Source: Streptomyces sp. NRRL F-5122
Lineage (GTDB): Bacteria > Actinomycetota > Actinomycetes > Streptomycetales > Streptomycetaceae
NCBI RefSeq assembly: GCF_001507435.1
Contig: NZ_LMWH01000254.1
Location: 124,001-188,000, forward strand
Length of the DNA stretch: 64,000 bases
Direction: 5' to 3'
Shown: in pieces, positions 46,391 through 62,053 of the stretch
Position numbering within the stretch: the stretch's first letter is position 1
Layout of the letters: each line of letters begins with the position of its first letter
Notes under the pieces: generated by a model
Seen by the model: only the letters and a program-made list of their open reading frames with translations
Told to the model about the DNA's origin: nothing
Databases searched by the model: none
Translations under genes and position numbers: made by a program

Positions 46391-46831
46391 GCGGCCATTC
46401 TCGCGTACGGCGTCGGCGCGCGTGGCCGGGGTGTCGTATGCCGCCCGACGGAGCCGGTTTCCCGGGGCCGGACCGGTCCGCCGGTTCGAACGGGACAGGC
46501 GGACGGGCGTCGGCGACGGCCTGCGGGGCGTCGCGGCGGGCCATCTGCACCCCGGCGGGGGAAGTCGGCGCACAGGGCCGCGTCCCGGGCCGGCGGTGAG
46601 ATACCCGGGAGCCGTTGGGCCCCTGCCCGGTGGCCCGCCGGATCGGCTCCTGCCCCGAGGCGGTCCGCGAGGCGTTCCGATCACGGGCGACCGGCGCGCT
46701 CGGCGGCACCGTCCACAGCCGGCGCATCGTGGACCGGGCGGGCCACCGGCACCCGGCCCGCCGCTTCCTCCACCGGGCCGTGCACCCGCGCACCACGTCA
46801 TGCCCTGCGCGGAGGCAGTGGCCCGGCCGCC
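46391..46831. other. Gene-free stretch upstream of recO
   Basis: Several overlapping open frames exist on both strands but none has a ribosome site together with a believable protein sequence. No strong hairpin or repeat was noticed. It probably holds the recO promoter. Confidence 0.5.
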
Positions 46832-47050
46832 TCAAGGGACCTCGCCCCGGCTGCGGGCGTTCGCGTACGCGGTCGCGGCCCTCAGCCGCTCCGCCTGGGT
46901 CGCGCTGCGTACCGCCTCCGGCTCCACGTCCCATTCCTTGCCCCCGCCGTACGGTCTGAGCTGGACGTACGGACCCTCGTGTCCCATCACCACGCCCACC
47001 CGCCCGGTGCGGACGTCGACGGCGTACGAACCGATCGGCGGCTTCTGCAT
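46832..47050 (-). CDS. Small conserved-looking protein, 72 residues
   Basis: Product starts MQKPPIGSYAVDVRTGRVGVVMGHEGPYVQLRPYGGGKEW and ends with a helical DVEPEAVRSATQAERLRAATAYANARSRGEVP. The first half looks like a small beta barrel (SH3/KOW-like); I do not recognise a characterised family. GGAGG lies four bases before the ATG. The start overlaps the stop of a 59-codon frame upstream (TGATG), suggesting a two-gene operon. A ligand- or nucleic-acid-binding role would be a guess. Confidence 0.7.
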   Translation of the reverse strand: MQKPPIGSYAVDVRTGRVGVVMGHEGPYVQLRPYGGGKEWDVEPEAVRSATQAERLRAATAYANARSRGEVP

Positions 47051-47229
47051 CACGCCTCCGCGGCCCGCTGCGTGCGGAGGACCGCAACGCGCCGGGCGGC
47101 GAAGTCGACGTGGCGGCCGTCCGGTCCGGCGAACGGGCGGGTAGCCCCGCGCGGGGGAGCCACCGGGGCGAGCCGGAGCGGCGGCACCACGGTTCCTGCT
47201 TCTGCGAGCGCCGCCCGCGATTCCCTCAC
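47050..47229 (-). CDS. Putative small protein, 59 residues
   Basis: GTG start with GGAGG four bases before it; the stop overlaps the next gene (TGATG). The product (MRESRAALAEAGTVVPPL ... HVDFAARRVAVLRTQRAAEA) is basic, has no Cys and no membrane helix, and resembles nothing I can name. The ribosome site and overlap argue for a real gene coupled to the following 72-residue one. Confidence 0.5.
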   Translation of the reverse strand: MRESRAALAEAGTVVPPLRLAPVAPPRGATRPFAGPDGRHVDFAARRVAVLRTQRAAEA

Positions 47230-47493
47230 TGCTCCTCCGCCTCTTCGGCGCAGCACGCCGAATGTCGTCCCCCGAGTGGTACGTGTACTGCAGCCACCCT
47301 GTTGCCCGGCCCACCCTGTTTTTACTCTTCGCATCACCCTTGTGACGCTCTGCATATACACTCGGCAGGTGCCTGCGCCCTGCAAGTGCGCAAGCACAAA
47401 GGGGTATCGGGCCCGGGCGGACCGGGCGCGCATGTACCACGCAAGTGACCGGATCACCGGCTCGGCGGCATGGGCGGAGTGCGTCGGACGACG

Positions 47494-48150
47494 TCAGCCC
47501 GCCACCGACACCAGCCCCGCCTCGTACGCGGTGATGACCAACTGCACGCGGTCCCGTGCGTCCAGTTTGGTCAGCAGACGGGTCAGATACGTCTTCGCGG
47601 TCGCCACGCTGATGCACAGTTCGGCGGCGATCTCGGCGTTGGACAGGCCGGTGCCGACCAGGGTGAGGACCTCCCGTTCCCGGTCCGTGATGCCCCGCAG
47701 TTCGCGGCGTCCGCGTGCCGGCCCGGGACGCGCCGCGAAGTGCTGGATCAGCCGGCGCGTCACACCGGGCGCGATCAGTGCGTCGCCCGCCGCCACCACC
47801 CGCACGGCGCCGATGATGTCGTCCAGCGCCATGTCCTTCACCAGGAAGCCCGACGCACCCGCGCGCAGCGCCCCGTACACGTGGTCGTCGTCGTCGAAGG
47901 TCGTGAGGACCACGATCCGGGTGTCCGTGGACCCGGCGGTGATGCGGCGCGTCGCCTCTATGCCGTCCATCTCCGGCATACGGATGTCCATGACGACCAC
48001 GTCCGGGGCGAGTTCCCCGGTCAGGGCCACGGCCTCCGCGCCGGTGGCCGCCTCCCCGACCACGTCCATGTCCTCGATGTCCGCCATCACCATGCGCAGC
48101 GCCGTACGGATCAGCTCCTGATCGTCGGCGAGGACCACCCGGACCGTCAT
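47494..48150 (-). CDS. NarL/FixJ-type two-component response regulator
   Basis: 218 residues. The receiver domain has acidic pocket residues in VVLADDQELIR, the phosphorylated Asp in VVVMDIRMPEMDG (about residue 54), Thr in VVLTTFDDDD and Lys in GFLVKDM. The LuxR-type helix-turn-helix is GITDREREVLTLVGTGLSNAEIAAELCISVATAKTYLTRLLTKLDARDR. Its ATG overlaps the kinase stop (ATGA), so they are co-translated. The divergent ABC exporter is the likely target. Confidence 0.95.
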   Translation of the reverse strand: MTVRVVLADDQELIRTALRMVMADIEDMDVVGEAATGAEAVALTGELAPDVVVMDIRMPEMDGIEATRRITAGSTDTRIVVLTTFDDDDHVYGALRAGASGFLVKDMALDDIIGAVRVVAAGDALIAPGVTRRLIQHFAARPGPARGRRELRGITDREREVLTLVGTGLSNAEIAAELCISVATAKTYLTRLLTKLDARDRVQLVITAYEAGLVSVAG

Positions 48151-49352
48151 CGGACGGACACCGGCAAGGGCAGCCGGGCCGCGACCCGGAAGCCGCCCTC
48201 CGGACGGGGTTCGGCGCTGAACCCGCCGTGCAGCAGCGCCACGCGCTCGCGCATGCCCGCCAGGCCGAAGCCCGTGTCGGTCGACGTGCCGTGCCCCCGG
48301 CCGTCGTCCGTCACCTCGAGGGAGATGTCGTCCTCGCCGTAGTCCACGGTCACCCGGCATGCGTGCGTACCCGAGTGCCGTACGACGTTCGTCACCGACT
48401 CCTGGATGATCCGGAACGCCGACAGGTCGATGTCGGGCGGAAGCCGGCGGGGCTCACCGAGCCACCTCACCTCGACCTGTACGCCCGCCGCGGTCGTCGC
48501 GGCGGCCAGCCGGTCCACGTCGGCCAGCCCTGCGGGCCGCGCCTCCGCGGCCGTGCCGTCCCCGTGCCCCGCGTCGGCCGCCCGGAGTGCGACCAGCATT
48601 CGCCGCAGCCCCGCCAGCGTCTCCCGGCCCGTCGTCTCCACCGCCCGCATCGCCTCCCGTGCCGCGTCCGGCTGAGTCGCCGTCACCCGGGCCGCCGCCC
48701 CTGCCTGGAGGGCGATGATGCCGATACTGTGGGCGACCGTGTCGTGCATCTCCCGGGCGATACGCAGCCGTTCGGCCGTCACCGCCTGCGCCGAGGCCTG
48801 TGCGCTCAGCCGCTCGGCGTGTACGCGGGCCTGGTGCGCCGAGTCGCCGAGCAGCCAGCTGATCACCGACACCAGGACCACGGCCAGTTCCGCCGACATG
48901 CCGACGGCCCATCCGCTCAGCAGCCGTGTGGCGATGTACGCGACCAGCGCACCGACCCCCAGGACCAGAGCCAGGACCGAGGTGCGGCGCGGCGCCGCCG
49001 CCGCGATGAAGTACAGCGCGAGGATCGGCGCGAGGTACTGCGCCATCGGCAGTTCGCTCACCCCGATCGTGACCGCCTCGCAGATCGAGGCCAGGATCAG
49101 CAGGGCGAGTGCGACCAGCGGCCGTGTCCGCAGCAACACGGCGCCGTACAGCGCCATCAGGGCGGAGACCACGTGGAACAGCAGACCGTCCCAGCGGTAC
49201 AGCTGGGCCGTCCCCCACTCCTCCGGCTCCGTCTCCCCGGGCAGCCTGAACGTGGTCAGGAGCGTGAAGAGCGTGCTCGCGCACCAGACGAGCACGATCC
49301 ACGTCCGCGGCGACACTCGCTTGACCAGGGGAAGCGGCGCAGTGACGGGCAT
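48147..49352 (-). CDS. Sensor histidine kinase (HisKA_3 type)
   Basis: A 401-residue membrane kinase. About four to six helices fill the first half. The dimerisation/phosphoacceptor domain shows RLRIAREMHDTVAHSIGIIALQAGAA, with the His of REMHD. The HATPase domain shows RIIQESVTNVVRHSG (N box), VTDDGRGHGTSTDTGFGLAGMRERV (G boxes). The ATG (MPVTAPLPLVKR) is chosen because TACGAT lies six bases before it with a matching -35 17 bases further up, so the mRNA is probably leaderless; an ATG 12 codons earlier has no ribosome site. Confidence 0.93.
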   Translation of the reverse strand: MPVTAPLPLVKRVSPRTWIVLVWCASTLFTLLTTFRLPGETEPEEWGTAQLYRWDGLLFHVVSALMALYGAVLLRTRPLVALALLILASICEAVTIGVSELPMAQYLAPILALYFIAAAAPRRTSVLALVLGVGALVAYIATRLLSGWAVGMSAELAVVLVSVISWLLGDSAHQARVHAERLSAQASAQAVTAERLRIAREMHDTVAHSIGIIALQAGAAARVTATQPDAAREAMRAVETTGRETLAGLRRMLVALRAADAGHGDGTAAEARPAGLADVDRLAAATTAAGVQVEVRWLGEPRRLPPDIDLSAFRIIQESVTNVVRHSGTHACRVTVDYGEDDISLEVTDDGRGHGTSTDTGFGLAGMRERVALLHGGFSAEPRPEGGFRVAARLPLPVSVR

Positions 49353-49358
49353 GTCGCG

Positions 49359-49387
49359 ATCGTAGAGGCGCGGCGCGGCGGCGGTCA
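49359..49387 (-). promoter_or_regulatory. Leaderless-type promoter of the two-component operon
   Basis: Reading the minus strand: TGACCG (-35), 17 bases, TACGAT (-10), then six bases to the kinase ATG. The RNA would start at the A of the ATG. Confidence 0.5.
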
Positions 49388-49449
49388 TCGGACCGGGGAC
49401 GTACAACCACGGTCGACAACGGCCGGCGGTGAATGTCGTCGGCCGCACG

Positions 49450-50400
49450 ATGCCCCACGACGCCCTGCCGCGCGACGGTGGTCCCGTGATCGAAGTCGAC
49501 CGCCTCACCAAACGCTACGGCGGGACCACCGCCGTCCGCCAACTGTCCTTCACCGTGCGCCCCGGCCGTGTCACCGGCTTCCTCGGACCCAACGGCGCCG
49601 GCAAGACCACCACCCTGCGGATGCTGCTCGGCCTGGTCGAGCCCACCTCCGGCGCCGCCACCGTCGACGGGCACACCGTCCGCCGGTATCCGCGCGGACT
49701 GCGTCACGTCGGCGCCCTCCTCGATGCCGGCGATGTGCACGGCGGCCGGACCGCGCGGGCGCATCTGCACGCGCTGGCCCGCAGCAACCGCATCCCGGCA
49801 CACCGGGTGGACGAGGTCCTCGCGGAAGTCGGACTGGCCGGTGCCCCGGCCGGGCGTCGGGTCGGCGGCTACTCGCTGGGCATGAAACAGCGCCTCGGGA
49901 TCGCCACCGCGCTGCTCGGCGATCCACCGGCTCTGCTGTTCGACGAACCGCTCAACGGACTCGATCCGGAGGGCGTGCTGTGGGTCCGCGGGCTGTTCCG
50001 GAGGCTGGCCGGCGAGGGCCGTACCGTCTTCGTCTCCAGTCACCTCATGTCCGAGATGGAGAACACCGCCGACGAGCTGGTCGTCATCGGGCGAGGCGAA
50101 CTGATCGCGGCCGAGAGCCTGACCGAGTTCGCCGCGCGCGGCACCCGGCCGACCGTGACCGTGCGCACGCCCGACGCCGGGACGCTGGCCGCCGCGTTGT
50201 CGGCCGAAGGCGCGGCCGTGGCGCCGTACGACGGGGAGACGCTGAAGGTCACCGGGCTCAGCTCCGACCGGATCGGCGAGATCGCCTTCGAACACGGCTT
50301 GTTGCTGCGGGAGTTGGCCACCGAGACCGCCTCTCTCGAAGCCGCCTTCATGGAACTGACCGCCGACAGCGTCGAATACCTCGCCGGAGAGCCCCGATGA
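49450..50400 (+). CDS. ABC exporter ATP-binding protein
   Basis: A 316-residue ATPase of the drug/antimicrobial-peptide export type (CcmA/BcrA-like). Walker A is GPNGAGKTTT, the signature is YSLGMKQRLG (a BcrA-like variation of LSGGQ), Walker B is ALLFDEPLNGLDPEG, and the switch His is in VFVSSHLMSEME. The C-terminal extension of about 90 residues is usual for this class. Start uncertain: ATG here, or GTG twelve codons on. The stop overlaps the permease start (ATGA). It is divergent from the two-component operon. Confidence 0.93.
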   Translation: MPHDALPRDGGPVIEVDRLTKRYGGTTAVRQLSFTVRPGRVTGFLGPNGAGKTTTLRMLLGLVEPTSGAATVDGHTVRRYPRGLRHVGALLDAGDVHGGRTARAHLHALARSNRIPAHRVDEVLAEVGLAGAPAGRRVGGYSLGMKQRLGIATALLGDPPALLFDEPLNGLDPEGVLWVRGLFRRLAGEGRTVFVSSHLMSEMENTADELVVIGRGELIAAESLTEFAARGTRPTVTVRTPDAGTLAAALSAEGAAVAPYDGETLKVTGLSSDRIGEIAFEHGLLLRELATETASLEAAFMELTADSVEYLAGEPR

Positions 50401-51239
50401 CCGCCTCGACGACCGCGCTCCCCCTGCCCGCCGCCCGCTTCACCGACCTGCTGGCCGCGGAGTGGATCAAGCTCCGGTCGCTGCGCTCCGTCCACTGGGC
50501 GCTCGGCGCCGGCGCCCTCGGGATCATCGCCTTCAACACCAACGCGGCCCGTGCGGACTACGTCAACTTCCCGCACTACGGCCGCGTCGTCCGGACGCAC
50601 TTCCTCTCCTGGGCACTGCGCGACGCGTTCACCCAGGGTGCCGCCATGATGCTGGTCCTCGCGGCGTCGAGCATCGGCGCCATCAGCATCGTCGGGGAGT
50701 ACACGACGGGCCTCGTCCGCACGACCTTCGCGGCCGTCCCGGACCGGCGCGCGCTGATGACCGCGAAGGTGGTCGTCGTTGCGGCCGTCATGACGGTGTA
50801 TGGCGCCTTCACCGCGGGCGCCTCCTTCGCCCTGACGCAGGCCGTCCTCGACGGGCGCGGTCAGGGCGTGTCGATCGGCCATCCGGGCGCACTGCGCGTG
50901 GTCGTGGCGTCCGCGCTGCTCGCGCCGGTGTGCGCCCTGGCCGGCCTGGGTCTGGGCGCGCTGATCCGGCACAGTGCGACGACCACTGTGTTCGACGTGT
51001 TCGTCCTGCTGTTCCTGCCCACCTTCGTGACCGACCGCTACCACTGGACGGCCTGCGTCAGGAACGCGCTGCCCTTCAACGCCTGGTACCGCCTCGTCGA
51101 CGTCGAGTACGGACATCAGCCGTTCACGCTGACTCCCCGCTATCCGACGACGGTGACGGGCGGCTGGATCGTGTTCGGTGCGTGGGCGCTCGCGGCGGCC
51201 GTCGTCGCGGTGGTCGCCGTTGACCGCCGCGACGTGTGA
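50397..51239 (+). CDS. ABC exporter permease
   Basis: A 280-residue membrane protein with about six helices, of the ABC-2 family. It starts with a cytoplasmic segment (LLAAEWIKLRSLRSVHWALG) typical of the class, followed by SIGAISIVGEYTTGLVRTTFAAVPDRRALMTAKVVV, the family's hallmark loop. With the preceding ATPase it forms a two-component exporter, likely for an antimicrobial. Its last 116 bases overlap the convergent MFS gene on the other strand. Confidence 0.93.
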   Translation: MTASTTALPLPAARFTDLLAAEWIKLRSLRSVHWALGAGALGIIAFNTNAARADYVNFPHYGRVVRTHFLSWALRDAFTQGAAMMLVLAASSIGAISIVGEYTTGLVRTTFAAVPDRRALMTAKVVVVAAVMTVYGAFTAGASFALTQAVLDGRGQGVSIGHPGALRVVVASALLAPVCALAGLGLGALIRHSATTTVFDVFVLLFLPTFVTDRYHWTACVRNALPFNAWYRLVDVEYGHQPFTLTPRYPTTVTGGWIVFGAWALAAAVVAVVAVDRRDV

Positions 51240-52815
51240 CGCGGCCCATGGCGTCGGCCCAGCGTCTGCGCGGGACCGCCTCCCGGCGCCCCGGTTCGGG
51301 GGCTCCGGGGCCCTGGTGCGTCTTTTCGTGCCGCAGCAGGGTCAGGTGCGCGGCGGTGAGCGCCAGCAGGATGCCGATGTTCACCAGCGCCGCCACATGC
51401 AGTCCGTCCGTGAACGCCGTCCGGGCCTGCGCGAGGAGGTCGCCGCCGAGCCGTTCGGGCAGCCGGGCGGCGACCTCGGTGGCACCGCCGAGGGTCGCGC
51501 GGGCGGCCCCGGCCGCGTCCGGCCCGACACCGTCCGGCAGGGCGTCGCCGCTCAGCTTCGCCCGGTACACGACGGCGGCGACGGACCCGGCGACGGCCAC
51601 GCCCAAGGCCTCGCCCAGGTTCGCACCGGTCTCCCCGATGCCCGAGGCGTTTCCGGCGCGTTCGGGTGGAGCGCTGCTGATGATGACGTCGTTGGTGAGC
51701 GCGAGCGCCGCCTGCACCCCGAACGACATGACGGCGAACCCGATGACGACGAGTCCCGGCCCGGACGTCGTGTCCGCCCGGGTGAGCAGCGCCAGCCCCG
51801 GCACGGCCAGCAGGAATCCGCCCGCCATGACCCGTCCCGGACTCGTGCGTGCCGCCACGAAGGGTGCGAGGAGCGCGCTCACCACGCCCGCCAGCACCGC
51901 GGGCAGCGTCCACAGCCCGGTCACCAGCGGGGACAGCCCCAGCACCAACTGGAGGTACTGCAGGAGCAGGAACTGGATCCCGGTCACCGCGAAGAGCCCC
52001 AGGGTCAGCCCGCCCAGCGAGACCCCGAAGGCCGGCCGGGTGAACAGTCTGAGGTCGAGCATGGGATCGGGGAGTCTCAACTGTCTGCGCACGAAGACGG
52101 CGCCGAGGCCGAGCCCCAGCGCGAGGCCGATCAGCGGCACCGTGCCGACACCGTGCTGGGCGATCTGCTTGAAGCCGTAGACCACCGGCAGCACCGTGGC
52201 GATGGACAGGGCGACGCTGGCCGGATCCAGGCGGCCGGCCGCCGGATCGCGGTACTCGGGCAGCAGCAGCGGACCGGCGATGAGCAGGACCACCCCGACC
52301 GGCACGCCCATCAGGAACACCGAGCCGTACCAGAAGTGCTCCAGGAACAGTCCGCCGACCAGCGGGCCGATCATCCCGCCGATGCTGAAATTGGTCATCC
52401 ACACCGCGACCGCCACCCGCCGCTGTCCGGGGTCGCGGAACATGTTGCTGATCAGGGAGAGGGTCGAGGGCATCAGCGTGGCCCCGGCGACCCCCAGCAG
52501 GGCGCGCGAGGCGATGAGCATCGCCACGCCGGACGAACAGGCGGCGAGCACGGAGGCTGCGGCGAACGCGGCGGCACCGATCAGCAGCAGCCGGCGGCGC
52601 CCGATCCGGTCACCGAGTGTGCCCATCGTGGCGAGGAAGCCGGCGACCATGAAGCCGTAGATGTCGACGATCCACAGCAGTTGGGTGCCGCTCGGATGCA
52701 GTCGCTCGCTGATGTGGGGGGCGGCCAGGTGCAGCACGGTCATGTCGAGGCCGATGAGCATGGTCGGCAGCGCGAGGACCGCCAGTCCGGTCCACTCCCG
52801 GCGCCCGGCCCGCAT
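51124..52815 (-). CDS. MFS efflux transporter (14-TM EmrB/QacA type)
   Basis: A 563-residue exporter with about 14 helices. Helix 1 carries LPTMLIGLDMTVLHLAAPHIS; motif A is MGTLGDRIGRRRLLLIG; motif C region is TNFSIGGMIGPLVGGLFLEHFWYGSVFLMGVPVG. The last 60 residues are an Arg/Pro/Ser-rich tail not expected in the family. That tail's coding sequence runs 116 bases into the convergent ABC permease gene, so either the overlap is real or a frameshift has lost the proper stop. It starts 38 bases after the Nudix gene and may export a product made with it. Confidence 0.88.
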   Translation of the reverse strand: MRAGRREWTGLAVLALPTMLIGLDMTVLHLAAPHISERLHPSGTQLLWIVDIYGFMVAGFLATMGTLGDRIGRRRLLLIGAAAFAAASVLAACSSGVAMLIASRALLGVAGATLMPSTLSLISNMFRDPGQRRVAVAVWMTNFSIGGMIGPLVGGLFLEHFWYGSVFLMGVPVGVVLLIAGPLLLPEYRDPAAGRLDPASVALSIATVLPVVYGFKQIAQHGVGTVPLIGLALGLGLGAVFVRRQLRLPDPMLDLRLFTRPAFGVSLGGLTLGLFAVTGIQFLLLQYLQLVLGLSPLVTGLWTLPAVLAGVVSALLAPFVAARTSPGRVMAGGFLLAVPGLALLTRADTTSGPGLVVIGFAVMSFGVQAALALTNDVIISSAPPERAGNASGIGETGANLGEALGVAVAGSVAAVVYRAKLSGDALPDGVGPDAAGAARATLGGATEVAARLPERLGGDLLAQARTAFTDGLHVAALVNIGILLALTAAHLTLLRHEKTHQGPGAPEPGRREAVPRRRWADAMGRVTRRGGQRRPPRRRPPRAPTHRTRSSRPSPSSDSGESA

Positions 52816-52853
52816 CGGGACGCCCGCGCCGCCGTGTGGTCGCACCACCGGGG

Positions 52854-53483
52854 TCAACCTGCCGCACAGGAGGAGACCAGTGCGTCCCGGCAGTCCTCGA
52901 GCAGGCGGCGTACCGCGTACGTGACCGGACGCTCCAGTGCCTCGGCGGGTGTCAGCCATTCGGCCGAGCTGCCCTCCGGGCCGAGGTCCACCACGAGGTC
53001 CGTGTCCACCTCGGCGACCGTCCGGTAGACGTGCCACAGATGCGCGTCGGCCCCGCGGCGGCAGCCGTCACCGGGTACCCGGATCCTGGCCAGGTGTTCG
53101 AGCGGCCTACCGGCGATGCCGGTCTCTTCCCGCAGTTCGCGCTCCGCCGCGTCGTCGGGCTGCTCGTCACACTCGACGTGCCCGGCGGGAATCGTCAGGC
53201 CGAACGGGAAGGCCGTACGGTCGAAGAGGAGGACCCGGCCACGGACGTCCCGGACGAACACGCCCGCCGTCTCGTGCCAGTACTCGCCCTCGGCATCGGT
53301 CCACCAGCGGACCTCGGGATCCAGCACCAGCGCCCGGTCGGCGACATGGCCGCAGGACCGGCATGCGCAGTGCCGTCGCCCCGCGACGGCACGCCACTGC
53401 ACCGACTCGCCGTGGCACCGCAGGCAGTAGTGGTGCACGGCGCCGTCGTTCAGCGCCTGCGGTGGAACGAAGTCCAGCTTCAT
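52854..53483 (-). CDS. Nudix hydrolase with N-terminal zinc ribbon
   Basis: A 209-residue pyrophosphohydrolase. The zinc ribbon has C20-x2-C23 and C41-x2-C44 (CLRCHG, CRSCG), as in NADH-pyrophosphatase-like proteins. The Nudix box GX5EX7REUXEEXGU is complete from G101 to residue 123 (GHVECDEQPDDAAERELREE then TGI). The next gene upstream is a GTP cyclohydrolase I. The family includes dihydroneopterin triphosphate pyrophosphatases, so that would be a fitting substrate, but this is inference. Confidence 0.9.
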   Translation of the reverse strand: MKLDFVPPQALNDGAVHHYCLRCHGESVQWRAVAGRRHCACRSCGHVADRALVLDPEVRWWTDAEGEYWHETAGVFVRDVRGRVLLFDRTAFPFGLTIPAGHVECDEQPDDAAERELREETGIAGRPLEHLARIRVPGDGCRRGADAHLWHVYRTVAEVDTDLVVDLGPEGSSAEWLTPAEALERPVTYAVRRLLEDCRDALVSSCAAG

Positions 53484-53621
53484 GGCTCACTCCCGGAACT
53501 ACGGATCTCACGGTCTCGGGCGCCCGTCACGGGGCCGGGCTGCCGGACGGCACGGCCCCGCGCGGTGGGCCCATCCAGGTGCCCACCGCGCGAAACCCGG
53601 TGCGCCGGAGCCGGCGGACCG

Positions 53622-54158
53622 TCAGGCCTCCAGGCCGAACCGGGAGAACAGCTCCTTGTCGCCGGCGACATAGGAGGTGTCGGTGATCACCGTCTGGTCG
53701 GAGGGGCCCCGGCTGCACATGCACATGTGCCGTCCGGTCGAGACCACCCGCGCCGCGCGCGCACCGCCCGAGTTCATGATCTCCTCGGCGATGTCCTTCA
53801 CGAGGTGCTCCTGGATCTGGAACCTGCGGCTGAACGCCTGTACCAGCCGCGGGAACTTGCCCAGACCGAGGATCCGGTCGCCGGGCACGTACGAGACCGC
53901 CACCTTCCCGTAGAAGGGCAGGAAGTGGTGCGCGCAGATCGAGTAGTAATTGATGTCGTGGACGCGGACCACTCCCGCATGCTCACCCTGGATCTCGACC
54001 GTGGTCTTGAGGATCGTCGATGTGTCGATCTCGTAGCCGCTCAGCAGCTGGCGGTAGGCGCGGACGATACGGGGTTCGCACTCGGGTTCCCGGTACCAGT
54101 CGAGTGCGCGCTTGTCGGTAGTGACGTTCTCTTCGAGCCACTCGGCGATGCTGCTCAC
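53622..54158 (-). CDS. folE: GTP cyclohydrolase I (short form)
   Basis: Converts GTP to 7,8-dihydroneopterin triphosphate, the entry to folate, pterins and 7-deazapurines. At 178 residues it lacks most of the N-terminal helix of the 200-residue folate enzyme. Catalytic zinc ligands are present: C75 and H78 (SICAHHFLPFYGKVAVSYVPG) and C146 (TGRHMCMCSRGPSD). The GTG start has a perfect AGGAGGT ribosome site. It is separate from any folate gene cluster, so it is probably a second, specialised copy working with the Nudix and MFS genes downstream. Confidence 0.9.
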   Translation of the reverse strand: MSSIAEWLEENVTTDKRALDWYREPECEPRIVRAYRQLLSGYEIDTSTILKTTVEIQGEHAGVVRVHDINYYSICAHHFLPFYGKVAVSYVPGDRILGLGKFPRLVQAFSRRFQIQEHLVKDIAEEIMNSGGARAARVVSTGRHMCMCSRGPSDQTVITDTSYVAGDKELFSRFGLEA

Positions 54159-54624: not shown

Positions 54625-55650
54625 TCAGCCGGACGTCACGGTCGGCTGCGGCTCGGGCTCCGGGTCCGCGGGCTCCGTGGCCTCCCAGAGGACGGTGAAG
54701 CGGTTGATGCGCTCCGCGACGTGCTCACGGGTCATCTTCAGCGTCGTCTTGGCGGGCATGACCTCGACGTCCGGTTCGGTCTCGTAGGACAGCTCCCCGT
54801 CGAAGACGATGAAGTCGTTGAGCGGGGTCACCTGCGCGGGCGGCGGAAGCAGTGCGCGCACCGCGATACGGGCGTCGATGCCGAACTCGCGATGGCGCTC
54901 GCACAATTGCTCGAGGCTGGGGGTGCGGTCCTCGGGCCTGCTGACCAGGAACAGCCGCCGTACCACCACACCGCGCTGCTTGATCGCCCTCTCCTGCGCC
55001 TTCAGATACCGGTTCGCGGGCTCGCTGAACCAGAAGTCGCGGTCCACCGAGGTGCTGGTGGCGTACACCGTCTTCTTGGCGCAGGTGGTGAGGTCGATCA
55101 GCCAGTCGTGGTTCTCACCCGGGCAGTCGGCGCTGCCGTTGCTGAGGCTCTCCATCAGCGAGGCGAGCCGACCGATCTCCTCCTGGGCGAAGGTCTTGAC
55201 CAGTTCCGAACCGTGCTCGCCCACCTGCGTGTACTTCCGGGCCAGCCGGGTCACGCCGTCCGAGCGCAGCACCGATCGGTCCACCTGGCTGAACAGCTCC
55301 GTCGCGTCGTTGATCTTGGAGAAGCTCTCGTCGACCGCCCTGCGCATCTGCTCGTGATGGCTGGCCAGACTGTCGCGCATCTCCCGGATGCGCTTCTTCT
55401 GACTCCCCTCCATGGCCTCGAGCCGCTGCTCGAACTCCACCAGATACTGGATGATCAGTGCCGCGCCGCCGAGGACGACGGACACGGTCAACTGCCACAC
55501 CTGGTTCTTGTCCTGGTCCAGCACGTTGGTCAGCACATAGGTGCCGGCCGCCACCACGACCGTGAGCAGCGTCTTGCGGAGCAGCTTGGATATGCGCTGC
55601 TCCTCCCGCTGCGGCACGGCCCCGGCGTCCCCTGTCGATGCTCCGCTCAT
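54625..55650 (-). CDS. Membrane-anchored protein with PLD-like C-terminal domain
   Basis: 341 residues. Two membrane helices near the N-terminus (LLTVVVAAGTYVLTNVL and VWQLTVSVVLGGAALIIQYLV) are followed by a long coiled coil (about 65-160, EFEQRLEAMEGSQKKRIREMRDSLASHHEQMRR on). The C-terminal domain of about 150 residues has the shape of a phospholipase-D-type unit (TVYATSTSVDRDFWFSEPANRYLKAQERAIKQRGVVVRRLFLV, then PLNDFIVFDGELSYETEPD) but has no HxKx4D motif. It is the last gene of the six-gene operon, 38 bases after the previous stop, with a good GGGGGAGG site. It may be a membrane sensor or effector. Confidence 0.8.
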   Translation of the reverse strand: MSGASTGDAGAVPQREEQRISKLLRKTLLTVVVAAGTYVLTNVLDQDKNQVWQLTVSVVLGGAALIIQYLVEFEQRLEAMEGSQKKRIREMRDSLASHHEQMRRAVDESFSKINDATELFSQVDRSVLRSDGVTRLARKYTQVGEHGSELVKTFAQEEIGRLASLMESLSNGSADCPGENHDWLIDLTTCAKKTVYATSTSVDRDFWFSEPANRYLKAQERAIKQRGVVVRRLFLVSRPEDRTPSLEQLCERHREFGIDARIAVRALLPPPAQVTPLNDFIVFDGELSYETEPDVEVMPAKTTLKMTREHVAERINRFTVLWEATEPADPEPEPQPTVTSG

Positions 55651-55688
55651 TTCGGCCTCCCCCGTCGGTGTCTCGTTCGTGCAGCAGC

Positions 55689-56657
55689 TCAGCGCGTGCT
55701 CAGCGCCTCGTGCAGCAGCGGTATGGCCTGGACGGCCAGTTGGTCGCGGATGCGCTGGACCAGGGTCTGCCACTGGCGAGTGAACCCCGGCTCCCGTTCC
55801 AGCACGTCCCACAATCGGCCCAGCGTCCGTTCCACGTGCGCTTGCGGCATCCACAGATGCAGCAGGTGGTCCACGGCCGGGCGCAGCGCCAGGACGGCCG
55901 ACGGGCCGTCCACCGCACCCAGCCGGCTGTTGTCCAGCATGTGCACGAGGGTCGTCAGCAACCAGTCGTGCAGCGCCAGGTCCTCGCACAGTCCCACGGC
56001 CGCGGTGGCCGGTGTCTCCTCCGGCAGGCTCAACTCCACGGTCCGCAGCCCGTCCTCGGCCAGGGTGAAGCGCTCCAGTGACGCCCCTTCGCCCGCCGGG
56101 GCCCGCCGCGCGACCCAGCGCAGATGGGTCCGCCGGGACTTGAAGGGCGCCTTGTGATCGAGTAGCGGATGCCGCAGCAACTGGGCGAGCAGCCCCTCGG
56201 CGATCATCCCGAGGTCCAGTTCACCGCGGGAGCTTCCGCGCAGGACGCCTTGCGCGGTTGCCTGCTCGGGAAGCTTCCCGAAGGGTTCGACCAGCCCGGG
56301 ACGTACCAGATAGTGGCCCCAGGGCCGGCGTGTGTCCGGGCCGGCGGACGGGACACTGAACCAGGCGCTGGCCTGCAGGACACGGCCCTCGGTGAGCGCG
56401 GCGCGGGAGGCCACCGTGCCGACGGCGCGCACCTTGGCGCCGTTTGCGGTGGGCAGCCTGCAGTCCACCCCGGTGAGTAGCTCCGGCGAGAGCGCGTAGA
56501 GGTTCGGCCGCTCGGAGACGCTGACCTGTTCGTCCGCGCGCAACCTCAGCAACTGGGCGGCGGCCCGGCCGTCCAGCGCCTGGAAGGACGGAAGCAGACA
56601 GGTGCGCGTCTCGCCGCAGACGAGGACCGCGGGCGCCGTCCGCCCGGTGGCCGCCAT
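55689..56657 (-). CDS. SCO2521-family protein
   Basis: 322 residues, cytoplasmic, no recognisable domain. Starts MAATGRTAPAVLVCGETRTCLLPSF. Other distinctive parts are PWGHYLVRPGLVEPFGKLPEQ, DLALHDWLLTTLVHMLDNSRLG and AVDHLLHLWMPQAHVERTLGRLWDVLE. I match it to the family named after SCO2521, conserved in actinobacteria with unknown function; the match is from memory. Its start is one base after the previous gene's stop (TGAGATG). Confidence 0.75.
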   Translation of the reverse strand: MAATGRTAPAVLVCGETRTCLLPSFQALDGRAAAQLLRLRADEQVSVSERPNLYALSPELLTGVDCRLPTANGAKVRAVGTVASRAALTEGRVLQASAWFSVPSAGPDTRRPWGHYLVRPGLVEPFGKLPEQATAQGVLRGSSRGELDLGMIAEGLLAQLLRHPLLDHKAPFKSRRTHLRWVARRAPAGEGASLERFTLAEDGLRTVELSLPEETPATAAVGLCEDLALHDWLLTTLVHMLDNSRLGAVDGPSAVLALRPAVDHLLHLWMPQAHVERTLGRLWDVLEREPGFTRQWQTLVQRIRDQLAVQAIPLLHEALSTR

Positions 56658-56658
56658 C

Positions 56659-57642
56659 TCACGTCTCCCCGTGCAGGACGGCGTCGGTGGGCTCTTCGTA
56701 GAAGACGTACGTGGCGCGCTGCGCGACCGCGGCCGGCACCGCGGCCCCCTCACGGGCGGAACGCTCCGCGACCTGCCGCAGAGCGCCGGAGTCGACGTCG
56801 ACCTGGTCGAGGATGAGCCGCACGGCGTCCTCGACGGCCAAGAAGCGGTTCGGCATCAGTGTGCAGGTGCGGTACGCGCTGAAGGGCGCCGCGGAGGCGT
56901 TGAGCTGGAGCAGCGGCGGCAGCAGATCCCAGTCGTGGGGGAAGTCGCCGCCGTTCCAGGGGCGCGGGGCCAGCACCGGCGCGCCGAGGTGGCGCAGCAG
57001 GCCGAGGCGGGCCAGCTGCCAGACGGCGGCGAGGAAGGGACAGGACCACAGGCGCTGCCCGTCCTTCTCCGACCACAGCTCGACGTCCATAAACACCGAG
57101 TGGTTGCGGGCCGCGGTCTCCTGCGGCGGCTGCCAGCCGGTGACCTCGCCCATGGCACTGCGCGACGTCGGGGTCCGCTGGCCGTTGGGGAGCCAGCCGG
57201 TCTCGCTGACCGGCGGGCGGGAGCCGTAGCTGCCCGGCGGCGGCGATTCGACAAGGCGATGCATCACGGATTCGGCCGGCTCGATCTTGTCGGCCACCGC
57301 GCAGCCGGACTCGCGGGCGAGGTAGTCGATGACCAGGCCCGCCCGCTCGGCCTCCGCCAGCACCACCGGGACGAGTTCGGCGGGGGTGGAGAAGCGTGTG
57401 AAGTAGTCGTCGATGAGAAAGCACGTGCTGATGCGGGGCCGCCTGCCGCCGGTACGGCGTGCGGCGGCGGCGCGGGCCGCGTCCACCCAGATCCGCACCT
57501 CGGCGAAGTGCTCGCGCAGCCGCTCGGGGCCGGCTTCGAAGTCCTCCATGTAGAGGTGGCCGAGCTCCAGCGAGAGATGGGAGAGCGGTACGGACTGCGT
57601 TCGGGGCTGCGCGGTCGTCTCCTGGAACACGGCTTCCGTCAC
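56659..57642 (-). CDS. SCO2522-family protein
   Basis: 327 residues, cytoplasmic. Distinctive blocks are QSVPLSHLSLELGHLYMEDFEAG, STCFLIDDYFTRFSTPAELVP, WSCPFLAAVWQLARLGLLRHLGAP and RTCTLMPNRFLAVEDAVRLIL. The acidic IDDYF near residue 75 recalls active sites, but I recognise no fold. Family named after SCO2522. GTG start overlaps the stop of the P-loop gene by four bases (GTGA), showing coupled translation. Confidence 0.75.
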   Translation of the reverse strand: MTEAVFQETTAQPRTQSVPLSHLSLELGHLYMEDFEAGPERLREHFAEVRIWVDAARAAAARRTGGRRPRISTCFLIDDYFTRFSTPAELVPVVLAEAERAGLVIDYLARESGCAVADKIEPAESVMHRLVESPPPGSYGSRPPVSETGWLPNGQRTPTSRSAMGEVTGWQPPQETAARNHSVFMDVELWSEKDGQRLWSCPFLAAVWQLARLGLLRHLGAPVLAPRPWNGGDFPHDWDLLPPLLQLNASAAPFSAYRTCTLMPNRFLAVEDAVRLILDQVDVDSGALRQVAERSAREGAAVPAAVAQRATYVFYEEPTDAVLHGET

Positions 57643-58556
57643 GCCTGCTCCCAGTACTTGTCGTCGGTCAGCCGGCCTGCCAGGTCGCTGAGCGCGTCCC
57701 AGGTCTCCCTGGTGGCGATCTGGCTGTCGAGTACGTCCTCGTCGGTGATGAGCTGTTCGCGCCACTGCAGTACGGGCTCAAGGGGCACGGAGCCGAGAAC
57801 CTGGGTGTAGCCGATGCCCAGGGCCGAGGACATCTGTTTGAGGTCGCGGTCACACTCGCGCATCCACGCCGACTGGGTGGCCGAGACCTGTGACCACAGC
57901 GGCGACTCGGGATCGGGCACGGCGGCCCGAACGAAGCGGATGACGCTGCGCAGCGCATCCTCGTCGTGGCCGCGGGCCACACCGCCGGCGACGATGCCAC
58001 GCTTGCCGAAGACCAGGCTCGCCGCGGCCGCCACATGCTGCCGGGTCCAGCGGTGGAAGACGAGCCAGCGGAAGTCCACACCGCGCATCTCGCGCTTCGA
58101 GGTGGCCTCCAGCACCATGTCGACGGCGTAGCTGCGGCCGGCGCTGAGGTCGACGACGATCAGGTCGAACTCGCCGTTGAGCCGGAGCAGGAGGTCGACG
58201 CACCGGCGCAGGTTCTCCTCGCCGGTGGCGAACTCGCCACCGGAGAGGTCACCGGGCATCAGTACCAGACGGCCGGAGCCGGGAGGCCGGTTGCGCAGCA
58301 CCCGGTGCTCGGTGTCCGACCAGACGTCGATACGGAGGGGCTCGCCCACCTCGCCGATCAGATACGAGTGCAGACCCCGGTCCTCGGCGGCTTGGCGCGC
58401 GTCGGGGACGTCGAAGACGGCCGCCGCGGTGGGCGATCCGAAGTCGAAGTCGAGGTAGCACACGTCGTCACCGGCCAGCGCCCGATGGTAGGCGAGGTTG
58501 GCGCTGGTGACGGAGCGGCCCGTGCCTCCCTTGTCGGAGGCCGCGAAGACGATCAA
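57639..58556 (-). CDS. SCO2523-family variant P-loop protein
   Basis: 305 residues of ParA/MinD-like fold. The N-terminal P-loop reads KGGTGRSV (K9 to V16): the signature Lys of deviant Walker A is kept, but the phosphate-binding Lys is Arg14. The following ANLAYHRALAGDDVCYLDFDFGSP is the switch I region. FDLIVVDLSAGRSYAVD is the Walker B-like part. Starts at TTG, since a stop codon lies two codons upstream in frame. Matches the family named SCO2523 variant P-loop. It could bind nucleotide without hydrolysing it well. Confidence 0.82.
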   Translation of the reverse strand: MIVFAASDKGGTGRSVTSANLAYHRALAGDDVCYLDFDFGSPTAAAVFDVPDARQAAEDRGLHSYLIGEVGEPLRIDVWSDTEHRVLRNRPPGSGRLVLMPGDLSGGEFATGEENLRRCVDLLLRLNGEFDLIVVDLSAGRSYAVDMVLEATSKREMRGVDFRWLVFHRWTRQHVAAAASLVFGKRGIVAGGVARGHDEDALRSVIRFVRAAVPDPESPLWSQVSATQSAWMRECDRDLKQMSSALGIGYTQVLGSVPLEPVLQWREQLITDEDVLDSQIATRETWDALSDLAGRLTDDKYWEQA

Positions 58557-58559
58557 CTG

Positions 58560-60401
58560 TCACACCCCCTGGGCCGCGGCTTCGCGGGCCCGGGCGAGGG
58601 CGTCGAGCTGTCCGAGCACGTCGAGCGTCAACGCGCACGCGGTTCCGGGCTGGTCGTCGACGAGATCCCTGGCACGGCGCAACTTGACCTCGATGCCCCT
58701 CAGTTCCATCCCGCGGTTGCCCTCGGAGGCGGGTGCGGGCTCCATCTGCTCGTTGCCGAGGAGGTGTGCCGACTCGCTGAGCAACGCCCGGGCGAGTTGG
58801 GTCAGTTCCAGGCTGCGGATCGGCGGCTGGTGGTACATCTGGTGGACCTGGACCATCACCTCGGTGACACGCTCGGTGATGCTCCAGGACACCGGCCCCT
58901 CGGAGACCGGCGACTCGGGGTAGGCGGCGTGGACGTTGTCCCACAGGCCGGCTCCCTCACCGTCGCGGATCCTGCGCAGCCACACATGACCGAAGATGTC
59001 CTCGGCGAGTCTGAGCAGCCGGTCGTGCGAGGCGAGGTTGCGGGAGAGCGTGCACAGCTGGATGGTCCGTTTGAGCAGCTGTGCCGAGAAATCCGTCATG
59101 ATCCACTGCATCGGCGGCCCGACGGCTTCACTGCCCTGCAGCGGCAGGGTGACACCGGGGTTGTGCAACTGGACCATGGGGTCGTCGCGCGTCATGCGAC
59201 TGGTGACGCGGCCGCGTTCGGCGAGGCGTTCCATGACGCTCACGGTGCGGGTCAGGTCGTCGTCGGTGGCCCGGCGCCGCATCAGGTCGTGGACCAGGAT
59301 GGCGGCGACGGAGAGCGAGAAGTACTCGGACTCCAGCTTCTGGCCGGTGGTGCGCCAGGGGATGTCCTCCAGGGGCCAGCGGTCGCTGTCGAAGCGCGCG
59401 ATGCCGGACCAGAACTGCTGCGTGATCTCCCAGCGCAGTCGTAACGCCTCGGCCAGCTTCTGCTGTTCGGAGTTGAGCAGGCCGAGGGTGAGCGTGCGGT
59501 CGGAGAACAGGTCCTGGATGCCGTCGAGCGCGACCACGGTGAAATACAGGTAGGGCACCTGGTTGGCGACTCCGACGGGCTGGGGCCCGATCTCCTCGTC
59601 GGTCTCCACCTCGGGAGCGTCCTTGACGATGCTCCAGCCCCAGCCGCACTCGAAGAGCTGGTTCTCGTCCTTGAGGCCCTCCTGGACGTCGACACCGAGG
59701 ACGAAGCTCTCGACGATGGCGGCGCGCAGCGGCCGGAAGCGGCGCTGGAACTTCTGCAGTACGTGCCGTTGCGACAGCCGCCCCTGGCCCAGCAGTTCGC
59801 AGAGCGTACGGCCCTGGGAGGAGTCGGTGTCGAAGGCGTTGACGGTGAACGAACGCAGCAGGCTCACCATGGCCGCGGTCAGCCGGTTGCTGGTGGCGGC
59901 GCGCAGTTCCTGGATCGTCTCCAGGACGTCGCTGCGACGGGTCTTGGACTCGTACACCTTGAGGAAACCGAGTGTGGCCAGACACAGGGTGATCGACATC
60001 GAGTACGAGTCGACCACCCCGAGTTCACGCTGTTCCTCGGTGAGGTCCCGGTCCTTGTCCGCGGAGACGAAGTAGGAGCCACCGGCGAACGTGGGTCTCT
60101 TGTCCTCGCCGGTGTGCATCCGCATGAACTGCGCCGCGGCCAGGACGAGCTTCGCCGGGACCTCCAGCCGTCCGCCCGCCTTCCTCAGCACCTTCTGGAC
60201 GTCGTCCTGAGTGGTGTCGGGGTCGTCGAGGCGGAAGGCCGGGATCTCCGTTGCCGGGTACAGGAGGCAGAGCAGGCGCTCCGCATCGGAGACACTGCTT
60301 TCCCCGCCCCGTTTGCCCCACGCCCACTCGCCGCCGTCGAACGAGTTGCGGGCCACTGCCTGCCAGATGTCCAGCAAATGCTGGCGTGGCTTGATCTGCA
60401 T
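58560..60401 (-). CDS. SCO2524-family large protein of unknown fold
   Basis: 613 residues, cytoplasmic, mostly helical, no Cys motifs or nucleotide sites. It opens MQIKPRQHLLDIWQAVARNSFDGGEWAWGKR. Conserved-looking parts are SDAERLLCLLYPATEIPAFRLDDPDTTQDDV near the start and PMQWIMTDFSAQLLKRTIQLC near residue 435. The first 110 residues, with SVSDAERLLCLLYPATEIP, resemble regulatory or scaffold domains rather than enzymes. Family named after SCO2524. A GAGGGG site precedes the ATG. It begins 70 bases after the methyltransferase stop. Confidence 0.8.
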   Translation of the reverse strand: MQIKPRQHLLDIWQAVARNSFDGGEWAWGKRGGESSVSDAERLLCLLYPATEIPAFRLDDPDTTQDDVQKVLRKAGGRLEVPAKLVLAAAQFMRMHTGEDKRPTFAGGSYFVSADKDRDLTEEQRELGVVDSYSMSITLCLATLGFLKVYESKTRRSDVLETIQELRAATSNRLTAAMVSLLRSFTVNAFDTDSSQGRTLCELLGQGRLSQRHVLQKFQRRFRPLRAAIVESFVLGVDVQEGLKDENQLFECGWGWSIVKDAPEVETDEEIGPQPVGVANQVPYLYFTVVALDGIQDLFSDRTLTLGLLNSEQQKLAEALRLRWEITQQFWSGIARFDSDRWPLEDIPWRTTGQKLESEYFSLSVAAILVHDLMRRRATDDDLTRTVSVMERLAERGRVTSRMTRDDPMVQLHNPGVTLPLQGSEAVGPPMQWIMTDFSAQLLKRTIQLCTLSRNLASHDRLLRLAEDIFGHVWLRRIRDGEGAGLWDNVHAAYPESPVSEGPVSWSITERVTEVMVQVHQMYHQPPIRSLELTQLARALLSESAHLLGNEQMEPAPASEGNRGMELRGIEVKLRRARDLVDDQPGTACALTLDVLGQLDALARAREAAAQGV

Positions 60402-60471
60402 CCCATGCCCCTCACACAGGCCGCACTGCCATCATTCGAGGAAGGCCGTCCCCTGTTGTGACGGCCGTTCC

Positions 60472-61260
60472 TCAATCGGTCGGAATCCCGGAGTCCGAAT
60501 TCCGCCGCCCGTAGGCGACGATCATTCCGGAATAGCCTTCGCGTACGGCGGCCGAAGCCTTGAGGCGCATCGTCTTGAACTCGCCCGCAAAAGGCTCGAG
60601 GCTCTCGTACACCTCCAACTCTCCCACGTCGCAGGCGGGGAAGAAATGCTCGCCCGCGTGATAACCCTTGGAATGTTCCATGAACGCGGCGGCGAAGGGC
60701 GCGCCGGGTGCGAGGGCGCGCAGGAAGCACTCGACACCTCGGGCGAACTCCTTGTGCGAGGTGGTCATCGACTCCGCGACGAAGAACATGGTCCCCATGG
60801 ACCACCGTCCCTCGTGCCGCACGAGGTCGAAGAGATTGCCGGGCTCGACCCGGACGGCGTCGCGAAACTTGGCCCGCGGGTCCATGTCGAGGGCGGCGTA
60901 CGCCTCGTTCTTGCACAGGACGCGCCAGAACTGGTCCCAGTTCGCGGCGTAGGAACCGACCTGGCTCTCGAGGTAGCGCACATTGGCCGAGGAGCGCTCG
61001 AGAAGTGTGATCTCGTCGCACCAGGGCAGCATGGCCAGTGCGGGGTAGAGGTTCGCGCCGGCCCCCACGTCGATACCCGAGACAGGTCCGGGGGTGCGCC
61101 CTCTGAAATGATCGCCGAAATGATCGCGTACGATATGAATGATCTCCTCGTCCTCCGCCTGTAAGTCGCGGTAATTGTGATCAACGTAGGCGATCGGGTC
61201 GAACGAGGCCCAGGACACATCCGCATTCAACTGCGTGTCCCCCGGCGATCTGAAGGTCAT
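60472..61260 (-). CDS. SCO2525-family SAM-dependent methyltransferase
   Basis: 262 residues, class I methyltransferase resembling the NNMT/PNMT/TEMT group. The SAM-binding motif I is GIDVGAGANLYPAL (62-75), followed by an acidic strand EITLLERSSANVRYLE. Motif region MFFVAESMTTSHKEF and FLRALAPGAPFAAAFMEHSKGYHAG follow. Members methylate small amines or similar; the substrate here is unknown. It is the first gene of the six-gene operon. TACCGT, six bases before the ATG, may be a -10 with a leaderless start. Confidence 0.88.
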   Translation of the reverse strand: MTFRSPGDTQLNADVSWASFDPIAYVDHNYRDLQAEDEEIIHIVRDHFGDHFRGRTPGPVSGIDVGAGANLYPALAMLPWCDEITLLERSSANVRYLESQVGSYAANWDQFWRVLCKNEAYAALDMDPRAKFRDAVRVEPGNLFDLVRHEGRWSMGTMFFVAESMTTSHKEFARGVECFLRALAPGAPFAAAFMEHSKGYHAGEHFFPACDVGELEVYESLEPFAGEFKTMRLKASAAVREGYSGMIVAYGRRNSDSGIPTD

Positions 61261-61519
61261 CCCTACACGGTACCAACGCCGGAGACCCGGTGGATCCCCT
61301 CACCCCGGCGCCGCGGAACAATTACGCCGCGGGGCGCATCGGGGGCGCACCGGGGCGAATGGACTTCGAGACCTGATCAGGCCTTGAACGCCCAGATCAT
61401 TCCCGCTCAAGATGGTCGCAACTCCGCCGAACACACCCGAACGGCAGACGGCACGCGTCCCATCCGTACCACCCCTACGGGTGGGGCATGTCCCTGACTC
61501 CTTCCCACAGGGGGGCCGC

Positions 61520-62053
61520 ATGACTGCGTTACCAGAGGAACGTTTCCCTTCGCGTCGGAGCCGCACCGGCCCGTCGTTGTGCCGCGACGGGGCGTTCGTC
61601 GAGCGGCCTCTGACGATGCGGGAGGTCACGGAGGACGACCTGCCCGAACTCGTGCGCGTCGACCAGGAGGCCTTCCCCGACGACCCCTACCCCTACTTCG
61701 TGCTCCGCCAGTTGTGCGATCTGCACGGCGACTGCCTGCTCGTGCTGGAGGACGGGAAGAGCCTGCACGGCTACGTCCTGTACGTCACCACGCGGGACGG
61801 GTACCGGAGTTGGATCGTCAGTCTCGGTGTCACACGCGACCAGCGGGGGCGCGGGCTGGGCCGGCGGCTGATGCTGGAGGTGCTGCGCCGGCTTCGGGGC
61901 GAGGACGTCCGCGAGGTCCGGCTGACCGTGGAACCGGCCAACGCCGCAGCGATCATGCTGTACCGCTCGCTGGGCTTCTCGTCCGACGAGGGTGTGCGCC
62001 ACGACTACTTCGGGCCCGGCGAGGACCGGCTCATCATGACGCTCGGACTGTGA
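61520..62053 (+). CDS. GNAT-family N-acetyltransferase
   Basis: A 177-residue acetyltransferase. Acetyl-CoA-binding motif A is SLGVTRDQRGRGLGRRLMLEVLRRLR (RGRGLG), and motif B is AAIMLYRSLGFSSDEGVRHDYFGPGEDRLIM, as in RimI-like enzymes that acetylate protein N-termini or small amines. A G-rich site stands before the ATG. It is divergent from the six-gene operon (259 bases between) and could be regulated with it. Confidence 0.9.
   Translation: MTALPEERFPSRRSRTGPSLCRDGAFVERPLTMREVTEDDLPELVRVDQEAFPDDPYPYFVLRQLCDLHGDCLLVLEDGKSLHGYVLYVTTRDGYRSWIVSLGVTRDQRGRGLGRRLMLEVLRRLRGEDVREVRLTVEPANAAAIMLYRSLGFSSDEGVRHDYFGPGEDRLIMTLGL

Follow-up and report, generated by a model that had tools for sequence, protein, structure and literature searches.

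A seven-gene block of SCO2521 to SCO2525 families, a DUF6879 protein and a GNAT acetyltransferase, present or absent largely as a whole across Streptomyces and certain related soil bacteria

Introduction

The gene block analyzed here lies on a 64,000-nucleotide stretch of Streptomyces sp. NRRL F-5122 (contig NZ_LMWH01000254.1, positions 124,001 to 188,000), referred to in its whole length as the window, and its closest described counterparts are the curated NCBIfam families SCO2521 to SCO2525, whose names indicate function only as far as 'methyltransferase' and 'variant P-loop protein'. A mutant screen by Gehring et al. in 2004 reportedly implicated SCO2525 in the growth and development of colonies. 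According to the accessible parts of later publications, the genes sco2521 to sco2526 of S. coelicolor, which carry the same family numbers as those of the window, form one operon of the HupS regulon with HupS-dependent expression, and SCO2525 is needed for normal growth (PMC11472566); SCO2525 was counted among the regulators under the principal sigma factor HrdB and assigned a morphogenetic role (PMC6344877), and its mutagenesis was tied to the concentration of S-adenosylmethionine (SAM) (PMC3017869). For the operon members past SCO2525 the accessible text on the HupS regulon gives no function. Neither a functional study of SCO2521 to SCO2524 nor a report on the function of the block was found in the literature searched, outside which most subscription papers lie, and searches for DUF6879 and KGGVGR, a domain and a motif that recur below, returned no paper.

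An initial annotation, made from the letters of the window, had described six genes as the best candidate for an undescribed system. 'Undescribed' is too strong, since the NCBI families are named, a role of SCO2525 is in print and the sco2521-2526 operon has been reported (PMC11472566, in its accessible part): families, operon and the role of one gene are already known. New, as far as literature searches reach, are the definition of a block of seven genes with its ends, a near-constant sixth gene and a GNAT component, as well as the division into core and accessory genes, an empty site, the prediction of a toroid and a Lys-to-Arg rule for the P-loop. Five separately named families without assigned function, a DUF6879 protein and a GNAT acetyltransferase are joined into a single unit that can be tested, whose ends are defined, for which nature supplies an empty site and whose largest protein has a predicted fold. 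The reported importance of an S. coelicolor methyltransferase gene for growth and development turns into the concrete question of whether the core genes share a product.

Gene order and coupling

There is strong evidence that seven neighbouring genes are kept or lost largely as one unit in Streptomyces and in some related soil bacteria, because junctions are conserved, the core is complete in every locus fetched, the sixth gene and the GNAT gene co-occur with it and an empty site exists beside recO. In the window six coding sequences occupy the minus strand at 54625-61260 (Table 1), and the tight junctions described initially were recovered, namely a gap of 3 bases between SCO2524 and SCO2523, an overlap of 4 bases between SCO2523 and SCO2522 and a gap of 1 base between SCO2522 and SCO2521; wider are those between methyltransferase and SCO2524 (70 bases) and between SCO2521 and the sixth gene (38 bases). 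The assignment of the first five proteins to the SCO2521 to SCO2525 families likewise held, all of them passing the curated cut-offs (SCO2525 336 bits against 240, SCO2524 923 against 300, SCO2523 491 against 200, SCO2522 472 against 200, SCO2521 421 against 150), and the sixth protein matched no NCBIfam model. The membership of six was incomplete, as a divergent GNAT gene had been missed.

As a reference, 29 named Streptomyces loci from public genomes were used, which may have strains in common with the class-wide genome set treated below; gene order within loci was set by start codons. The six operon genes follow one order in 27 of the 29 loci. Among the 28 comparable loci, the 1-base gap between SCO2522 and SCO2521 is kept in all and the 4-base overlap between SCO2523 and SCO2522 in 25, and SCO2524 and SCO2523 are always separated by 1-4 bases. 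Since they are kept across the named loci, the tight junctions are not due to chance. The median identity to the window amounts to 56% for the sixth protein (26 loci) versus 84% for SCO2524 (28 loci), the sixth being the fastest-evolving of the six. A GNAT gene adjoins the methyltransferase in 28/29 named loci.

Both exceptions to the common order, L017 and L028, are damaged loci. That of S. diastatochromogenes (L017, 12764-15179) holds a degraded operon with 2.4 kb separating SCO2523 from SCO2522, an altered P-loop (KGGACRS) and neither sixth gene nor GNAT gene. That of Streptomyces sp. uw30 (L028, 3126-4655) comprises a GNAT gene, the methyltransferase and an SCO2524 that breaks off after residue 409; the later operon genes are missing from the 10 kb past the break.

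Distribution, core and accessory genes

With the genome of the window itself counted in each tally, SCO2524 occurs in 4/198 genomes at the level of the phylum, in 29/296 at that of the class, where it is spread over 7 of 114 genera, and in 9/28 genomes of the same genus. A further 27 loci were taken from the class, without the window and the short contig L058, and the core SCO2524-2523-2522-2521 was complete in all of them, which bears out the expectation that the genes occur together elsewhere. The sixth gene was present in 23 of these loci and the methyltransferase in 18. Searches of whole genomes (E <= 1e-15) recovered the sixth gene in 25 of the 296, all within the 29 genomes with SCO2524 and in none of the 267 others; asked initially whether it is always present, it proved near-constant (25/29). 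In L079, L081 and L085 it is placed between SCO2523 and SCO2522, and it therefore travels with the system and not just with one neighbour. Above its family cut-off the methyltransferase was found in 19/296 genomes, all 19 with SCO2524; five more genomes, lacking SCO2524, hold a divergent relative below the cut-off. Two loci (L072, L084) show the core only, two others (L078, L034) core and GNAT gene. Conserved order, coupling and joint presence or absence together support the proposal, also made initially, that the genes form one functional unit.

Two loci deserve separate mention. In L076 (11155-18551) a weak methyltransferase-like match (12 bits, E 0.06) adjoins SCO2524 and the GNAT gene lies ~7 kb off, as if DNA had been inserted. 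In L058 (G473:C361), from a draft genome, a TAG codon interrupts the SCO2524 frame and the contig stops inside the sixth gene.

Ends of the block

The GNAT gene and the sixth gene are read as the ends of the block. The GNAT protein matches PF00583 with 63.8 bits (cut-off 20.7) in the longer reading of the same frame, and the rimI model TIGR01575 with 67.8 bits, below the cut-off of 86.4. Among the 27 fetched loci 21 contain the gene, ten times divergently, ten times upstream in the direction of the operon (the ~7 kb distance in L076 included) and once at the far end, facing the operon (L034). An orthologue stands at the locus in 9/9 genomes of the same genus with the operon and in 0/19 without it. 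The latter possess generic GNATs only, with best matches of E 8e-12 to 1e-6 and 29-42% identity, identities above 35% being confined to G171 and G193, where they span less than 80 residues. For G314, an operon-bearing control, the same search reached E 3e-42.

On the other side, recO follows downstream of the block in 8/9 operon-bearing genomes of the genus, ~50 bases to ~8 kb past the sixth gene, which in L035 and L070 stops ~50 and ~70 bases ahead of it; recO is located elsewhere in G450 and in 7 tested genomes of other genera. A gene of ~175-215 aa borders the GNAT gene on its other side in L062, L064 and L066. Eight of the 19 operon-free genomes were examined around recO, and none of the seven genes was found there (filter E 1e-20, >50% identity, >60% length). 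One of the eight, L094, has an empty site, the single clean case, with ~60 bases between recO and the end of the match to the bordering gene; six more have 6-16 kb of unrelated sequence between bordering gene and recO, and the stretch around recO in L096 did not yield the bordering gene.

Between recO and the operon the window itself (45644-54158) holds a sensor-kinase/response-regulator pair, an ATPase frame whose ABC type was read from sequence, an MFS transporter and a GTP cyclohydrolase I gene, none of which is a constant neighbour across the other loci.

Table 1. Components of the seven-gene block and the region between its two transcription directions, in window positions.
Feature	Position	Strand	Remarks
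SCO2525-family SAM methyltransferase, NNMT/PNMT/TEMT type	60472..61260	-	262 aa; NF040568, PF01234
SCO2524-family protein, core component, predicted alpha/alpha toroid	58560..60401	-	613 aa; NF040567
SCO2523-family variant P-loop (MinD/Mrp-like) protein	57639..58556	-	305 aa; TTG start; DKGGTGRS; NF040564
SCO2522-family protein	56659..57642	-	327 aa; GTG start; NF040566
SCO2521-family protein	55689..56657	-	322 aa; HDWLL at residues 230-234; NF040565
Sixth protein: N-terminal hydrophobic segment, variable linker, C-terminal DUF6879	54625..55650	-	341 aa; PF21806
GNAT acetyltransferase, divergent, seventh component	61520..62053	+	177 aa; PF00583
Putative divergent promoter region common to methyltransferase and GNAT gene	61261..61519		aligned regions; promoter reading inferred

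Properties of the proteins and the promoter region

The methyltransferase matches PF01234 over residues 10-223 with 33 bits against a cut-off of 25. Known members of PF01234 act on small molecules, methylating an amine, a pyridine or a thioether. The protein of the window resembles the methyltransferases NNMT, PNMT and TEMT in this match and differs in having an NCBIfam family of its own. Upstream, 20 of 30 available regions (the window and 19/29 named loci) were aligned. GGTACCGT adjoins the start codon of the methyltransferase, GGTAC standing beside it in 20/20 and TACCGT in 18/20 aligned regions, and in the window TTGAAC-N18-CAAGAT faces the GNAT gene. These elements may represent two back-to-back promoters, of which that of the methyltransferase would be leaderless. 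As a guess, SCO2526 could be the GNAT gene.

For SCO2524, a structure model predicts an alpha/alpha toroid of six hairpins that falls within the AGE-type fold, and the nearest folds are those of sugar epimerases and isomerases, followed by GH76 mannanases among others. In AGE-type epimerases a catalytic set of His, Glu and Arg is situated in the barrel. SCO2524 shares the predicted fold with N-acylglucosamine 2-epimerase, cellobiose 2-epimerase and D-mannose isomerase and departs from them in identities of 7-12% and in ~85 C-terminal residues past the match. It has no Pfam match to the family of AGE-type sugar epimerases and isomerases; 8/28 members weakly match DUF6829, a family without assigned function (best E 0.0031), and a sequence search against solved structures stayed at chance level (best E 0.36). 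Invariant are 70 residues, 39 of which are polar, Trp or Tyr.

SCO2523 is of MinD/Mrp type at its N-terminus, where it matches PF01656, PF10609 and MinD models. The score for PF01656 barely exceeds the cut-off (25.9 bits against 25.4), that for PF10609 falls short (26.0 against 27.1), the cut-offs of the MinD, ParA and Mrp models are missed by far, and NF047398, a variant AAA ATPase with a KGGVGR motif, is matched with 39.8 bits where 90 are set. In MinD and ParA the P-loop reads KGGxGK[ST]. From the MinD, Mrp and ParA ATPases, which it resembles in these N-terminal matches, SCO2523 differs in Arg14, which replaces the P-loop Lys in all 35 sequences (DKGGTGRS in 34, DKGGACRS in one), so that the Lys of the MinD/ParA P-loop is lacking; Lys9 and Asp136 are invariant.

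In SCO2522 54 positions are invariant among 32 sequences, including R70, D78, D79, D106, E111, R142, H181, D186, E188 and W199, a pattern with many charged and aromatic residues that looks enzymatic. Scanning each member against Pfam yielded no family common to more than 1/32, and a sequence search against solved structures yielded nothing; in a wide protein search with the alignment, the best 120 of 2241 proteins (E <= 1) all carry PF28097. None of these searches linked SCO2522 to an established family other than its own. SCO2521 shows an invariant HDWLL motif (30 sequences). No Pfam family was common to more than 2/30 of its members and none was found beyond its own family; against solved structures its sequence gave chance-level matches (best E 0.58).

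The sixth protein had been annotated as membrane-anchored and similar to phospholipase D (PLD). Anchoring is retained on hydropathy only: at least one N-terminal hydrophobic segment was present in 25/25 sixth proteins and two in 13/25, that of the window being a single one at threshold, and hydropathy revealed no such segment in the window's five remaining operon proteins. The similarity to PLD was not confirmed. The C-terminus matches PF21806 (DUF6879) with 27.4 bits against a cut-off of 23.9, and 21/24 aligned members match this model at E <= 1. The PLD superfamily is characterized by the motif HxK(x)4D. HxKxxxxD occurs in 0/24 sixth proteins, and a relaxed HKD-like pattern, present in 7/24 at scattered positions, is taken as chance; because of the missing motif an enzymatic PLD identity was rejected. 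Compared by sequence with solved structures, the protein gave a single match (E 0.042, profile positions 75-150).

Proposed function and alternatives

We tentatively propose that the seven-gene module modifies a small molecule or a glycan, maybe at the cell membrane, a reading that we consider quite possible without calling it probable. Small-molecule chemistry is favoured because PF01234 is matched above cut-off, a GNAT domain is present and the predicted toroid is nearest to sugar epimerases and isomerases: chemistry is what a toroid, a likely enzyme, an acetyltransferase and a methyltransferase of small-molecule type would point to, and a MinD-like protein together with a membrane anchor to a regulated, localised complex. 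SCO2524-2523-2522-2521 would form the core of one seven-gene module of actinomycetes, the majority of which possess SsgA-type sporulation proteins. In it the SCO2524 toroid with SCO2522, and perhaps SCO2521, may bind a small molecule and convert it, the likeliest candidates being a sugar-like or amine-bearing compound or a glycan of the envelope. SCO2523, MinD-like and with Arg for the P-loop Lys, might serve as a nucleotide-dependent switch of assembly, and the sixth protein might tether the complex to the membrane. Methyltransferase and GNAT protein would be tailoring enzymes, methylating and acetylating the product or its precursor, and loss of the product would disturb colony growth and development; such a role is reported for SCO2525, and the other genes may be linked to it. 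Gene content, order and coupling, the common occurrence or lack of the genes, the P-loop substitution and the hydrophobic segment were observed and the toroid fold was predicted; from these we infer catalysis, substrate, switch role and complex formation, and the mechanism as a whole is a judgement.

Several points weigh against a modifying module. Foldseek alone gave weak results for SCO2524 (best E 0.027). Loops, where the active site of a barrel would be expected, hold no excess of the invariant SCO2524 residues: 17/70 lie there and 44/70 in helices, compared with 204 and 376 of 613 residues overall. A toroid fold, here a predicted one, is no proof of catalysis. The structure model of SCO2522 was unusable (mean pLDDT 42, 22 sequences). 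In the block there is no obvious scaffold-building enzyme and no transporter. Four fetched f68 genomes keep core and sixth gene and have neither methyltransferase nor GNAT gene in the stretch taken, and tailoring is therefore not required for the core. The published phenotype, as far as the sources are accessible, concerns SCO2525 only, and the account by way of SAM concentration in the accessible part of PMC3017869 offers a simpler explanation of it, needing no special product.

A signalling device, in which a state would be sensed by the SCO2523 switch together with the sixth protein at the membrane, toroid, SCO2521 and SCO2522 would bind ligands or act as scaffold and methyltransferase and GNAT protein would modify proteins of the complex, is possible yet doubtful. 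The MinD-like variant P-loop, the sixth protein with its hydrophobic segment and rapid evolution, the RimI match of the GNAT protein below cut-off and the reported HupS-dependent expression of sco2521-2526 (PMC11472566, in part accessible) agree with it, but the methyltransferase matches a small-molecule family, the 54 invariant positions of SCO2522 look enzymatic and domain scans turned up no output domain, whether of kinase, cyclase, DNA-binding or other type.

A more elaborate form of the modifying module, which we regard as unlikely, would be a nucleotide-gated, membrane-tethered enzyme machine without described parallel, with access to the SCO2524 toroid or its assembly under the control of a MinD-like switch lacking the P-loop Lys and of two proteins without known domains, the methylated and acetylated product of which times development in spore-forming actinomycetes. 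Quite unlikely is a device of envelope or spore wall, with the MinD-like protein and the membrane anchor picking the sites where the toroid works on a glycan of wall or capsule, or on its precursor. The nearest folds of SCO2524, sugar epimerases and then GH76 mannanases among others, would suit it, as would SsgA-type proteins, which were found in 28/29 genomes with SCO2524 versus 146/267 others (Fisher p 4e-6, kinship ignored). However, this association is confounded by kinship, and G050, with a divergent core (SCO2524 43% identical), possesses SCO2524 without SsgA, so that the core also occurs outside SsgA genomes; moreover, since the sixth protein is the one operon product of the window with a hydrophobic segment, the toroid is probably intracellular.

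Of the signalling, developmental or defence device suggested initially, the developmental option fits the SCO2525 papers as far as they are accessible (PMC6344877, PMC3017869, PMC11472566), and defence found no support. An anti-phage or other conflict system, to which the patchy presence within the genus (9/28) and the distant likeness of the variant P-loop to the KGGVGR domain might point, is very improbable, because PADLOC gave no more for the six operon proteins than one weak match (PDC-M28B, 20.7 bits, SCO2523 residues 6-46) and the site near recO recurs in 8/9 genomes of the genus, and in addition Pfam and NCBIfam scans found no nuclease, NADase, protease or pore domain and the accessible parts of the sources name SCO2525 as a HrdB target (PMC6344877) and call it necessary for normal growth (PMC11472566).

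Related methyltransferases at other loci

In five genomes without SCO2524 (L086-L090; G354, G424, G182, G397 and G372) a divergent methyltransferase of SCO2525 type, 31-33% identical to that of the window and below the family cut-off, stands directly behind the gene of a protein of 1428-1602 aa, in 5/5 loci. This giant protein was not equated with CdgC, the main text on which contains neither 'aminotransferase' nor 'methyltransferase'. In the three of the five that were scanned with Pfam it consists of PAS, GGDEF and EAL domains, as in c-di-GMP proteins, fused to an enzyme of the PLP aminotransferase fold, the latter part being nearest to BioF in the two scanned with NCBIfam.

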